Assembly: GCF_019613795.1 (NCBI RefSeq)
Contig: NZ_CP080429.1
Location: 186,001-250,000, forward strand
Direction: 5' to 3'
DNA length: 64,000 nucleotides
Source: Flavobacterium litorale
GTDB lineage: Bacteria; Bacteroidota; Bacteroidia; Flavobacteriales; Flavobacteriaceae
The notes beneath the pieces were generated by a model. That model worked only from the letters and a program-made list of their open reading frames with translations, ran no database searches and had not been told where the DNA came from. Below are positions 25,444 to 30,092 of the stretch, piece by piece; positions within the stretch are counted from its first letter, which is position 1, and each line of letters begins with the position of its first letter. A program made the position numbers and the translations under genes.

Positions 25444-26199
25444 ATGAAAAAAACACTACTACTAATTACGTACATTATATGTTTGCAATACATGCAAGCA
25501 CAAGTTGTTGATAGTGTTAATACAAAAAGTAACACGCTACGATTGGATCAGCTTAAAAGCGGTAACAACACCTATGTTGTTTACATACAAGACTCTTTAA
25601 ACGAACCTAAATATAATTTTGAATTGTGGGAACGAATAATTGATAAAAATGCTACCTCAAATAAAAACACACTCGTTTGGAACAGGTATCAGAACAATAA
25701 AACTAAATTTTACAAGTACACCATTGCGTTTACCAACAAACTAGAACCCATAAGTGAAGAAGTATACCATGAGGATATAAAAGATGGTATAACTGTTATT
25801 ACTAAAAAACACTTTGTATACAACGGTAACCAAATGCATTCTAATCCCGATAGTAATAAGCATACTGCCAAACCCGTTGAGGTTTTAGATTTGAAAAACT
25901 CTTTTAATTGGGAGTTGGATTTAGAAACACTCTCAACACTGCCTTTAGCAAAAGGCAAAACATTTGCTATTAACTTTTATCATCCAGGCTCTAGAATACC
26001 ACCAAAATATTATGATTTTGTAGTAGACAGAAGCGAAAAGTTAACTTTTAATAATAAACCTCTTGATTGCTGGGTTGTAAAAGTTGTTTACTCTAAAAAG
26101 CAATCCAGTGAGTTTTGGATAGATAAATCTACCCACAGCGTACTGCAAATGAGAGAATATTTTTATGGGAAATACCGCTACAAAAAACTAATAGTTTAG
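25444..26199 (+). CDS. Secreted protein of unknown function (DUF3108-like)
   Basis: 251 residues with a signal peptide ending near residue 20 (QAQ). The body is beta-rich and resembles DUF3108-type proteins, with a GKTFAINFYHPGSR-like core and WIDKSTHSVLQM near the C-terminus. It is 12 bp after the hydrolase gene, so they form one transcript. No catalytic motif is visible. Confidence 0.72.
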   Translation: MKKTLLLITYIICLQYMQAQVVDSVNTKSNTLRLDQLKSGNNTYVVYIQDSLNEPKYNFELWERIIDKNATSNKNTLVWNRYQNNKTKFYKYTIAFTNKLEPISEEVYHEDIKDGITVITKKHFVYNGNQMHSNPDSNKHTAKPVEVLDLKNSFNWELDLETLSTLPLAKGKTFAINFYHPGSRIPPKYYDFVVDRSEKLTFNNKPLDCWVVKVVYSKKQSSEFWIDKSTHSVLQMREYFYGKYRYKKLIV

Positions 26200-26307
26200 T
26201 ATAGCCAATTACACAACAACGCTATACACGGTAAATTTCCACTATACTATTAGAGTCTTTTTTCGTAAAAAAAGAAATATCTATACGTATAAAACAGTAT
26301 AAAATAG

Positions 26308-26315
26308 TAATTTTG
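26308..26315 (+). promoter_or_regulatory. TAnnTTTG -7 element for the fluoride riboswitch transcript
   Basis: TAATTTTG matches the -7 consensus and would start transcription just before the aptamer at 26327. Confidence 0.6.
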
Positions 26316-26326
26316 CTGTTACCAAT

Positions 26327-26380
26327 GGCAATGATGTCTGCCTCGAACTGCTTTTTATAACCAAAAGCTAATGACGTCTG
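26327..26380 (+). promoter_or_regulatory. Fluoride riboswitch (crcB motif)
   Basis: The aptamer pairs in all three expected helices: GGCA/TGCC (26327-26330 with 26339-26342), GATGTC with GACGTC (26333-26338 with 26373-26378, one G-T pair), and GCTTTT with AAAAGC (26350-26355 with 26363-26368). The conserved single strands GAACTGC and GCTAATGA also match the known fluoride aptamer. A small stem, ATGGC-TTAT-GCCAT (26385-26398), sits between the aptamer and the ATG at 26424. It lacks a U-run, so control is probably at translation or by structure change. The next gene is a CLC-type fluoride exporter, which is the expected partner. Confidence 0.88.
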
Positions 26381-26423
26381 TTTAATGGCTTATGCCATAA
26401 TAGATGTATTTAACTAAGGCAAA

Positions 26424-27707
26424 ATGACAAAAAGAAACTTTGCACCAAACATTGCAAACATTCCGCAAGTAAATTATTTCTCGTATCTACTTAAATGGCT
26501 TTTATTAGCCTTACTAATTGGCGCACTCATCGGGTCGGTAACTGCTTTTTTTCTCACGTCGCTAAATTGGGCTACCAATTGGCGCGAAAATCATGTATGG
26601 ATTATAGCACTACTCCCCATTGGCGGGCTTATAATAGGTTTAATGTACCACTACTGGGGTACATCGGTAGTAAAAGGTAATAATCAATTGCTAGAAGAAT
26701 TCCATAGTCCCAAACAAATAATACCGCTAAAAATGGCTCCTTTGGTATTATCGGGTACGCTAATAACCCACTTTTTCGGAGGCTCGGCAGGCAGAGAGGG
26801 TACAGCTGTACAAATGGGCGGCGCAATAGCCGACCAATTTACTAAGCTGTTTAAATTAAAAAATACCGACCGAAAAATTATCCTCATTATGGGGATAAGT
26901 GCTGGTTTTGCAGCCGTTTTTGGTACACCCTTAGCAGGGGCAATATTTGCGTTAGAGGTATTAGTGGTAGGGCGCGTGCGGTACGAAGCTATTTTACCTA
27001 GCTTTTTGGTAGCCGTAATCGCCAACTATGTATGCGATTTATGGAATGTAGCACACACGCACTATACCATACCCATAGTGCCCGAAATGGATATTATTAA
27101 CCTGTGCTACACCATTGCAGCAGGAATACTATTTGGTTTGGTTGCGCTTTTATTCTCCAAAACAACCCATTCGTTTGGGAGTTTGTTTAAAAAAACAATT
27201 AGCTATCCACCGTTACGTCCACTTATAGGTGGTATCTGTATTGCTTTGGTAGTATGGCTACTAGGTACAACAAAATATATTGGTTTGGGTATTCCTACTA
27301 TTGTAGATGCTTTTAACCACGATTTACCACAGTACGATTTTTTAATAAAACTACTGCTAACCGCTTTTACACTTGGCGCAGGCTTTAAAGGCGGCGAAGT
27401 AACCCCGTTATTTTTTATTGGTGCTACGTTAGGTAACGCACTGTTTTTGTTTGTACCATTACCCATAGCCTTGTTAGCAGGTATGGGGTTTGTTGCCGTA
27501 TTTTCGGGAGCAACCAACACCCCAATAGCCTGTACCCTTATGGGTATTGAGTTATTTGGCGCAGAAAGCAGCTTATACATAGGCGTTGCGTGTACGGTTG
27601 CCTATCTGTTTTCAGGGCATACAGGTATATACTCCTCTCAAATTGTAGGCAGCCCAAAACACCATATATACAAAAAGTTAAAAGGTAAAAACCTTAACCA
27701 ACTGTAA
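26424..27707 (+). CDS. CLC-F type fluoride/proton antiporter
   Basis: 427 residues, a CLC chloride-channel-family protein with about ten membrane segments. GREGT (123-127) holds the gating glutamate (Glu125) and has Thr where chloride-type CLCs usually have Pro. KGNN (84-87) replaces the Ser-containing selectivity motif, and GGEVTP (323-328) provides a Glu-Val-Thr like that of fluoride-specific CLCs. With the fluoride riboswitch in its leader, export of fluoride in exchange for protons is the likely role. The subclass call rests on these motifs and the riboswitch, which are independent lines of evidence. Confidence 0.88.
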   Translation: MTKRNFAPNIANIPQVNYFSYLLKWLLLALLIGALIGSVTAFFLTSLNWATNWRENHVWIIALLPIGGLIIGLMYHYWGTSVVKGNNQLLEEFHSPKQIIPLKMAPLVLSGTLITHFFGGSAGREGTAVQMGGAIADQFTKLFKLKNTDRKIILIMGISAGFAAVFGTPLAGAIFALEVLVVGRVRYEAILPSFLVAVIANYVCDLWNVAHTHYTIPIVPEMDIINLCYTIAAGILFGLVALLFSKTTHSFGSLFKKTISYPPLRPLIGGICIALVVWLLGTTKYIGLGIPTIVDAFNHDLPQYDFLIKLLLTAFTLGAGFKGGEVTPLFFIGATLGNALFLFVPLPIALLAGMGFVAVFSGATNTPIACTLMGIELFGAESSLYIGVACTVAYLFSGHTGIYSSQIVGSPKHHIYKKLKGKNLNQL

Positions 27708-27779
27708 GCCTGTTGGGTACAAATACAATTTTAGTACACCAATACCACTCGTATTTTACAATTATGATATTTAAAGACT

Positions 27780-27787
27780 TATCTTTG
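27780..27787 (+). promoter_or_regulatory. TAnnTTTG -7 element for era
   Basis: TATCTTTG lies 20 bp before the ATG at 27808, a perfect consensus match. Confidence 0.65.
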
Positions 27788-27807
27788 CAGATTAAAAGAA
27801 GTATAGT

Positions 27808-28692
27808 ATGACACACAAAGCGGGCTTTGTAAATATAATAGGAAATCCAAACGTAGGTAAATCTACGTTAATGAATGCATTTGTAGGCGAACGCCTATCC
27901 ATAATTACCAGTAAGGCACAAACCACACGCCACCGTATATTGGGTATTGTAAATGGCGACGATTTTCAGGTAATATTATCTGATACACCCGGTATTATAA
28001 AACCTGCCTACGAGTTGCAGTCTAGCATGATGGATTTTGTAAAATCGGCTTTTGAAGATGCCGATATTCTTATTTACATGGTAGAAATTGGCGAAACAGC
28101 ATTAAAAGATGATGCCTTCTTCAATAAAATAATACATGCCAAAATACCCGTACTATTACTCTTAAATAAAATAGATAAATCGAGCCAAGAACAGCTGGAA
28201 GAACAGGTACAACTTTGGAAAGAAAAGGTACCCAATGCAGAGTTATACCCCATATCGGCACTCGAAAACTTTAATGTAACCGAAGTATTCAACCGAATTA
28301 TAGAATTGTTACCCGAGTCGCCTCCCTTCTACCCTAAAGATGCACTTACCGATAAGCCCGAACGCTTTTTTGTAAACGAAACCATACGCGAAAAAATACT
28401 CCTTAATTACGAAAAAGAAATTCCGTACGCCGTAGAGATAGAAACTGAGGAATTTATTGAAGATGAAAATATTATTCGTATTAGAGCCTTAATTATGGTA
28501 GAGCGCGACACCCAAAAAGGGATTATTATAGGGCATAAAGGAGCAGCTATTAAAAAAGTAGGCATACAAGCCCGCGAGGATTTAGAAAAATTCTTTGGCA
28601 AGCAAATACACATCGAAATGTTTGTAAAGGTAAATAAAAACTGGAGGAGCAACAGTTACCAACTAAAACGCTTTGGGTATAACCAAAAGTAA
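27808..28692 (+). CDS. era: GTPase Era, 30S ribosome assembly factor
   Basis: 294 residues. The G domain shows GNPNVGKS (G1), TTRHR (G2 region), DTPG (G3) and LNKIDK (G4). A KH RNA-binding domain follows, with EIPYAVEIETEEF and KGIIIGHKGAAIKKVG. Era binds the 3' end of 16S rRNA late in 30S assembly. It is a single gene with its own promoter; der follows after about 90 bp with another promoter. Confidence 0.97.
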   Translation: MTHKAGFVNIIGNPNVGKSTLMNAFVGERLSIITSKAQTTRHRILGIVNGDDFQVILSDTPGIIKPAYELQSSMMDFVKSAFEDADILIYMVEIGETALKDDAFFNKIIHAKIPVLLLLNKIDKSSQEQLEEQVQLWKEKVPNAELYPISALENFNVTEVFNRIIELLPESPPFYPKDALTDKPERFFVNETIREKILLNYEKEIPYAVEIETEEFIEDENIIRIRALIMVERDTQKGIIIGHKGAAIKKVGIQAREDLEKFFGKQIHIEMFVKVNKNWRSNSYQLKRFGYNQK

Positions 28693-28756
28693 ATGGTAAA
28701 AACAGCTTTACAATAAACTATTGGCTAATGCCTTATGCCCAATCGCTTATAATGCT

Positions 28757-28764
28757 TACTTTTG
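28757..28764 (+). promoter_or_regulatory. TAnnTTTG -7 element for der
   Basis: TACTTTTG, an exact match, 20 bp before the ATG at 28785. Confidence 0.65.
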
Positions 28765-28784
28765 CAAAAAATTAAAATTCTGTA

Positions 28785-30092
28785 ATGAACAATATAGTAG
28801 CCATAGTAGGACGCCCAAATGTAGGTAAATCTACTTTTTTTAACCGCCTCATACAGCGCAGGGAAGCTATTGTCGATTCTGTTAGTGGCGTAACGCGCGA
28901 CAGGAACTACGGCAAGAGCGAATGGAATGGCAAAGAATTTTCGGTAATTGATACAGGCGGATATATAAAAGGATCGGATGATATTTTTGAAGGCGAAATA
29001 CGCCGACAAGTGGAGCTTGCTATAGACGAAGCCGATGTTATTGTATTTGTAGTAGATGTAGAGGAAGGCATTACGCCCATGGACGAAGAAGTTGCTAAGC
29101 TACTCCGTAAAGTTACCAAGCCTATACTGCTGGCTGTAAATAAGGTAGATAACGGACAGCGTGAAAAAGATGCTGTAGAGTTTTACAATCTCGGACTAGG
29201 CGAATTTTACACCTTTGCAGGAATGAACGGTTCGGGTACTGGCGATTTGTTAGATGCTTTAGTAGAGCTACTACCCAACGCACAAGAACCTGAAGATAAC
29301 GAAGAATTACCCCGATTTGCTGTAGTAGGACGCCCAAACGCAGGTAAATCATCATTTATAAATGCTCTTATAGGCGAAGAGCGTTTTGTAGTTACCGATA
29401 TTGCAGGTACTACCCGCGATGCTATAGATACTACCTACAACCGTTTTGGTTTTGAGTTTAAGTTGGTAGATACCGCTGGTATACGCCGTAAAGCCAAAGT
29501 AAAGGAAGATTTAGAGTTTTACTCTGTAATGCGCTCGGTAAGAGCCATAGAGCATAGCGATATTTGTATTTTGGTAATTGATGCTACACGTGGGTTTGAG
29601 GGGCAAGACCAAAGTATATTTTGGCTCGCCGAAAAAAACCGTAAAGGTGTTGTAATACTAGTTAATAAGTGGGATTTAGTTGAGAAAGATAATATGACTA
29701 CCCGCGACTACGAGTGTAAAATTAGAGAAGAGCTACAGCCGTTTGACGATGTACCCATCCTATTCGTATCGGCATTAACCAAACAACGTTTACTAAAAGC
29801 CCTTGAAACTGCTGTTGAAGTTTTCGAAAACAGAAAGCAACGTATTGCCACCTCCAAGCTAAACGATATTATGCTACCCATTATAGAGCATAATCCGCCA
29901 CCAGCCTTAAAGGGTAAATACGTAAAAATAAAGTTCTGTATGCAGTTGCCTACTCCAACACCGCAGTTTGTATTCTTCTGTAATCTGCCACAGTACGTAA
30001 AAGAGCCTTACAAACGTTACCTAGAAAATAAAATGCGCGATATATTTAACCTGTCAGGCGTGCCTATAGATATTTACTTCCGCCAAAAATAA
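28785..30092 (+). CDS. der: GTPase Der (EngA), 50S ribosome assembly factor
   Basis: 435 residues. Two GTPase domains in tandem are evident, GRPNVGKS at 8-15 and GRPNAGKS at about 181-188, each with DTGG/DTAG and NKVD/NKWD motifs. The KH-like C-terminal domain follows. This double-G arrangement is unique to Der. It acts in 50S subunit maturation. A strong terminator follows the stop. Confidence 0.98.

Follow-up and report, generated by a model that had tools for sequence, protein, structure and literature searches.

The question raised by this locus is how a fluoride aptamer can govern the gene behind it in a bacterium whose translation starts would offer no Shine-Dalgarno (SD) sequence to hide. 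We analyzed a stretch of 64,000 nucleotides of the Flavobacterium litorale genome (hereafter the window), in which the initial annotation had proposed a fluoride riboswitch ahead of a CLC-F antiporter gene (features in Table 1). We consider it likely that the element is a fluoride-ON riboswitch governing a CLC-F exporter through the exchange of two strands at the level of translation. The aptamer, the CLC-F relationship and the competing pairings are read from sequence, and from them we infer the ligand, the direction of control, its translational level, and transport. Transcription would start near the edge of the aptamer. When fluoride is absent, a downstream hairpin (26374–26407) would take the 3' strand of P3 from the pseudoknot, and the freed 3' strand of P1 would pair with AGGCA beside the AUG, leaving the start region occluded. 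When fluoride is present, the P1/P3 fold would retain both strands and the start region would open; CLC-F would then be made and fluoride exported.

Table 1. Features of the locus in window coordinates
Feature	Position	Strand	Basis
-7 promoter box, TAnnTTTG type, TAATTTTG	26308–26315	+	motif fit
Fluoride riboswitch aptamer (RF01734)	26318–26387	+	46.4 bits against 34, E 1e-9
P1, GGCA/TGCC	26327–26330 / 26339–26342	+	sequence reading
P3 pseudoknot, 5' strand GATGTC	26333–26338	+	six pairs with GACGTC
P2, GCTTTT/AAAAGC	26350–26355 / 26363–26368	+	sequence reading
P3 pseudoknot, 3' strand GACGTC, also used by the competing hairpin	26373–26378	+	
Putative competing OFF hairpin, outer stem ACGTCTGTT / AATAGATGT	26374–26382 / 26399–26407	+	fold, covariation
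Putative OFF hairpin, inner stem ATGGC/GCCAT	26385–26389 / 26394–26398	+	
AGGCA ahead of the start codon, complementary to aptamer TGCCT (26339–26343)	26417–26421	+	best leader fold
Gene for a CLC-F type fluoride/proton antiporter, 427 aa	26424–27707	+	6d0j E 2.5e-64, PF00654 E 1.3e-78, signatures

When the 64 kb were searched with all Rfam families (cmscan), two matches exceeded the cut-offs, namely one tRNA and one Fluoride riboswitch. The Infernal check proposed in the initial annotation thus matched the Fluoride covariance model well above its gathering score of 34 bits, and the alignment spanned positions 1–64 of the 64 in the model with no non-standard pairs marked. All three helices described there (P1, P2 and the pseudoknot P3) were found, including the six-pair helix with a single T-G wobble (26335/26376), while the aptamer excludes the initial 10 nt of the annotated interval 26308–27707. 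The element is confirmed as a fluoride riboswitch aptamer with fluoride as its presumed ligand, and it is the only one detected at E ≤ 0.001 in the F. litorale genome (2.73 Mb, one contig). Since the flavobacterial -7 box occupies positions -12 to -5 (PMC9723704, in part), the box upstream of the aptamer predicts a start at about 26320, and transcription probably begins at the aptamer edge. Of 118 distinct aptamer loci, 77 carry a TAnnTTTG-type box between -40 and +5 relative to the aptamer, compared with 177 of 8230 control windows of 45 nt; the contrast is somewhat flattered because the controls contain coding DNA. No sigma-70-type promoter was detected on the + strand by a pattern scan of 26180–27820.

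The first competing helix is the hairpin that would disrupt P3. In F. litorale, the segment 26373–26408 folds at -16 kcal/mol (z -5.59), and none of 200 shuffles was equally good. We assessed this anti-P3 pairing among 124 aptamer loci, of which only L101 scored under the cut-off. Removing 14 loci in which no ORF was found or the first ATG lay over 130 nt away, as well as four duplicates, left 106 including F. litorale, and other aptamer matches under the cut-off (L038–L047 and others lacking a locus) were left out. As the start we took the earliest ATG in the CLC ORF or, if this was lacking, in the first ORF (a later ATG for L014 and L132). We then computed the pairing of the 15 nt that open with the P3 3' strand against the leader as far as the AUG. 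The pairing was better than in dinucleotide shuffles with p ≤ 0.05 in 65 of the 106 distinct Bacteroidota leaders (p ≤ 0.01 in 36) and missed this level in 41, and cognate partners averaged -9.84 kcal/mol against -6.23 kcal/mol (sd 0.24) for swapped partners, with 0 of 2000 permutations as low; as related loci are not independent, both the counts and the permutations make the events seem more numerous than they are. The F. litorale leader alone gave p 0.023, and its nearest relative, L017, gave p 0.216.

We further chose by eye 15 leaders of the F. litorale type. L133 (a close copy of L062) and L143 and L144 (a different layout) were left out, and L025, L028 and L032, in which the TGGC/GCCA stem bears a longer loop, are not among the 15 either; the anti-P3 pairing is weak in the latter three (p 0.379, 0.063 and 0.608, respectively). 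In these hand-picked leaders, the P1 and P3 pairs were present in 98.0% of cells, and the OFF hairpin pairs in 91.5% of cells as opposed to 25–42% in slid controls. The covariation score of the hairpin was 0.221 against 0.150 when shuffled (1 of 500 shuffles), and nine cells were changed on both sides against 3.2 (0 of 500 shuffles). Two other measures in the same 15 leaders stayed within the shuffled range: the number of pairs with both sides changed (72 of 500 shuffles) and that of further pair types (188 of 500). The anti-P3 duplex reached p ≤ 0.05 in only seven of the 15. Altogether, a competing anti-P3 pairing, as predicted from these leaders, is present and partly conserved.

A short in-frame ORF in the leader (ATG at 26385, MAYAIIDVFN, stop at 26415–26417) overlaps the OFF hairpin; it initially seemed conserved and was rejected as it is not kept in three of the relatives read: it ends at codon 3 in L154, runs on without a stop to the CLC start in L017, and lacks its ATG in L004. 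The conserved letters are thus taken for the inner stem, of which the closing pair is U-A in 11, C-G in three and U-G in one of the 15 leaders. In L048, L054, L065, L069 and L087, the anti-aptamer segment lies before non-CLC ORFs (several of them CrcB-like by eye) and contains AGGAG, which resembles an SD sequence but may be only a pairing partner in Bacteroidota.

The second competing helix lies at the AUG. The best fold of 26321–26444, by a method that cannot hold pseudoknots, joins TGCCT with AGGCA and TGTC (26335–26338) with GACA (26426–26429), so that the AUG would lie between or in two stems. The TGCCT/AGGCA helix was better than in single-base shuffles (p ≤ 0.05) in 12 of the 15 hand-picked leaders, with F. 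litorale itself at 0.064, and was absent in L004 and L111; swaps within the 15 leaders were as low in 12 of 5000 cases. Outside this leader type, p ≤ 0.05 was reached in only seven of the 54 loci examined. Covariation in alignment A2 of the 15 leaders was confined to one pair and not beyond shuffles (87 of 500), a count lowered by the misplacement of L004, L005, L105 and L111 near the AUG. The predicted second helix is therefore supported more weakly than the first. As the OFF hairpin stops 16 nt ahead of the AUG, occlusion in F. litorale would depend on the second helix. We give an even chance to the broader proposal that an SD-free, two-strand translational fluoride switch is spread across Bacteroidota, in which a pre-AUG segment would compete for the 3' strand of P3 and, in the Flavobacterium group of F. 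litorale, the P1 strand would also capture the AUG-proximal AAGG(C/T)A.

From the lack of a U-run after the aptamer, the initial annotation had suggested that control may be translational. The observation stands: a pattern scan of 26180–27820 found no terminator-like site between the aptamer and the ORF (and two inside the ORF), and the tail after the hairpin, TTTAACTA, contains 4 U of 8. In Flavobacterium johnsoniae, SD sequences are not used and structure at -20 to +20 accompanies lower translation (PMC6847099, in part). These points favour translational control, and the competing pairings reach the start region; the level of control, taken alone, is what we infer with somewhat better than even confidence. 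In a crude accessibility model holding no real pseudoknot, the paired fraction at -20 to +20 drops from 0.526 to 0.440 in F. litorale; the same model gave a drop of more than 0.02 in 74 of the 106 loci and a rise of more than 0.02 in 12, the rise being clear in L004 and L143 and slight in L017.

The main rival to translational control retains the riboswitch and the exporter and has the 26374–26407 hairpin terminate transcription early. We regard this as unlikely, albeit deserving more weight than any other alternative. The hairpin would break the pseudoknot as the terminator of the Bacillus cereus switch does (PMC11077080, in part), and at least 5 U lie within 8 nt after the pairing in 14 of the 65 leaders with significant anti-P3 pairing, including L004 and L005 of the F. 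litorale type. On the other hand, the F. litorale leader has neither such a tail nor a detected terminator-like site, and the pairing segment ends at most 8 nt from the AUG in 48 of the 65 leaders (43% in shuffles), leaving scant room for a U tail before the gene.

Aptamers over the cut-off were found in 20 of 397 genomes of the family, 46 of 395 of the phylum and 40 of 299 of the genus Flavobacterium, in searches whose filters lose weak matches. Of the 299 Flavobacterium genomes, 186 have a CLC relative at E ≤ 1e-60, and comparing the lists by reading placed all 40 aptamer-bearing genomes among the 186 and none among the other 113. The CLC loci of other genus genomes that were read singly are the best 29 (L102–L130) of the relatives from the 186 genomes; the aptamer is present in the first ten (66–88% identity) and L116, and was not detected around the remaining 18 even at E ≤ 0.5. 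These 18 (L112–L115 and L117–L130) belong to a Flavobacterium CLC-F group bearing GREGT and GGEVTP. Among 15 further CLC loci (7 kb each), 11 carried an aptamer over the cut-off. On a rapidly built tree of 109 CLC proteins, the aptamer label required four changes against about 20 in shuffles, the proportions being no census since the rows were gathered partly by aptamer. The 18 aptamer-less loci formed one group (support of 93, drawn open) beside the aptamer-bearing L152 (the 19 together having a support of 100). Loss of the switch in one lineage would give this pattern, and this group perhaps reflects such a single loss. The segment 26300–26480 had no match among plasmid records.

In L006–L008 and L016, which are of Dysgonomonas, the aptamer lies more than 1.4 kb ahead of the CLC gene; in these four and L083, it precedes an ORF that is enolase-like by eye, with CLC-F further downstream in the Dysgonomonas loci.

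The sister CLC-F group of the same genus, with no detectable aptamer in the 18 loci read, implies that the switch can be lost. The F. litorale aptamer departs from the Rfam consensus at two sites, with AACTGC for AACCGC and GCTAATGAC for GCTGATGAC, and the nearest relative, L017, carries the consensus at both. The aptamer could then be a decayed relic and CLC-F be made constitutively, which we find quite improbable: the element scores 46.4 bits with every helix intact, each departure recurs elsewhere (AACTGC in L005, GCTAATGAC in L033 and L034), and the competing hairpin is retained in the F. litorale leader.

The gene that the switch would control begins after 36 nt of leader. Among the solved structures, the best relative of its product is the fluoride/proton antiporter 6d0j of Enterococcus casseliflavus (220.9 bits, query residues 17–406), whose variants 6d0k and 6d0n match as well, and the Pfam family Voltage_CLC (PF00654) is clearly recognised. 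The glutamate of GREG (E125) and the Tyr of GIY, which we take to be functional residues in 6d0j, align between the two proteins; F. litorale has GNN and GREGT where the E. casseliflavus protein has GMN and GREGV. The residues listed in the initial annotation are all in the ORF (KGNNQ at 26673–26687, GREGT at 26790–26804 and GGEVTP at 27390–27407). Compared with the published CLC-F signatures, GNNLI/GMGLI, GREGT/V and GEVTP (PMC11139923, in part), the F. litorale protein shows GNNQL, GREGT and GEVTP, deviating from GNNLI at the final two residues. All 121 loci read (some of them duplicates) bear GGEVTP together with GREGT (117) or GREGS (four). The assignment of the product as a CLC-F F-/H+ antiporter is thus supported, with transport predicted from this relationship. 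A chloride CLC that stands behind a fluoride aptamer by coincidence is scarcely credible. In favour of this reading, NCBIfam yields ClcA/ClcB models alone, all far under their cut-offs. Against it, the chloride and other CLC structures listed reach at best E 3.7e-11 and 45.7 bits or less, the GNN, GREGT and GEVTP signatures are present, and the aptamer is linked to CLC in relatives too.

A profile search of the F. litorale genome with PF02537 found no CrcB/Fluc (the control was positive in 10 of 14 genomes), and the second CLC of the genome is 25% identical and lacks GREG and GGEVTP. The CLC-F would accordingly be the sole recognised fluoride exporter of the genome. The single fluoride role claimed for aptamer and transporter is supported by the covariance-model match, the CLC-F assignment, the joint occurrence of aptamer and CLC within Flavobacterium, and the lack of a recognised CrcB/Fluc. 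The CLC gene is followed, at 27808–30092, by two genes for GTPases that by eye resemble Era and Der; MMR_HSR1 and KH_2 domains were found in the first. Both were seen only at L017 and L102 among the fetched loci, which mostly had flanks of 1.5–3 kb; L017 and L102 have an equal CLC score and are perhaps of one genome.

About 30% of CLC-Fs are reported as riboswitch-regulated, and CLC-Fs are commonest in Bacteroidetes among the major phyla (PMC11139923, a review, in part), so that the pairing of aptamer and CLC-F is of a known kind. The aptamer and the exporter are therefore familiar, and the switching arrangement is less so. The locus resembles the crcB motif (RF01734) in the full-length model match, P1, P2, the pseudoknot and the position ahead of a fluoride exporter, and differs in that no terminator was found in F. 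litorale and the competing segment lies towards the start region in a phylum rarely using SD sequences. It shares with the transcriptional switches of B. cereus and Thermotoga petrophila a downstream hairpin competing for the pseudoknot, but theirs is an intrinsic terminator and that of F. litorale has no U-run (PMC11077080, in part). The fluoride riboswitches of Pseudomonas syringae and Burkholderia pseudomallei are named as translational controls (PMC13273304, in part). As for these two, no intrinsic termination would be expected in F. litorale. The lineages of P. syringae and B. pseudomallei use SD pairing. In contrast, Bacteroidetes are described as lacking SD sequences (PMC6847099, in part). 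We found no description of the SD-free arrangement in the titles and abstract openings of the mainly open-access literature on fluoride riboswitches, Bacteroidetes riboswitches and SD sequestering.

Through this analysis, a function is attributed to a CLC gene of a genome without a detected CrcB/Fluc. Moreover, the base pairs named here allow riboswitch control of translation to be tested where there is no SD sequence to hide, and the putative SD-free switch at the start site is the part worth testing.
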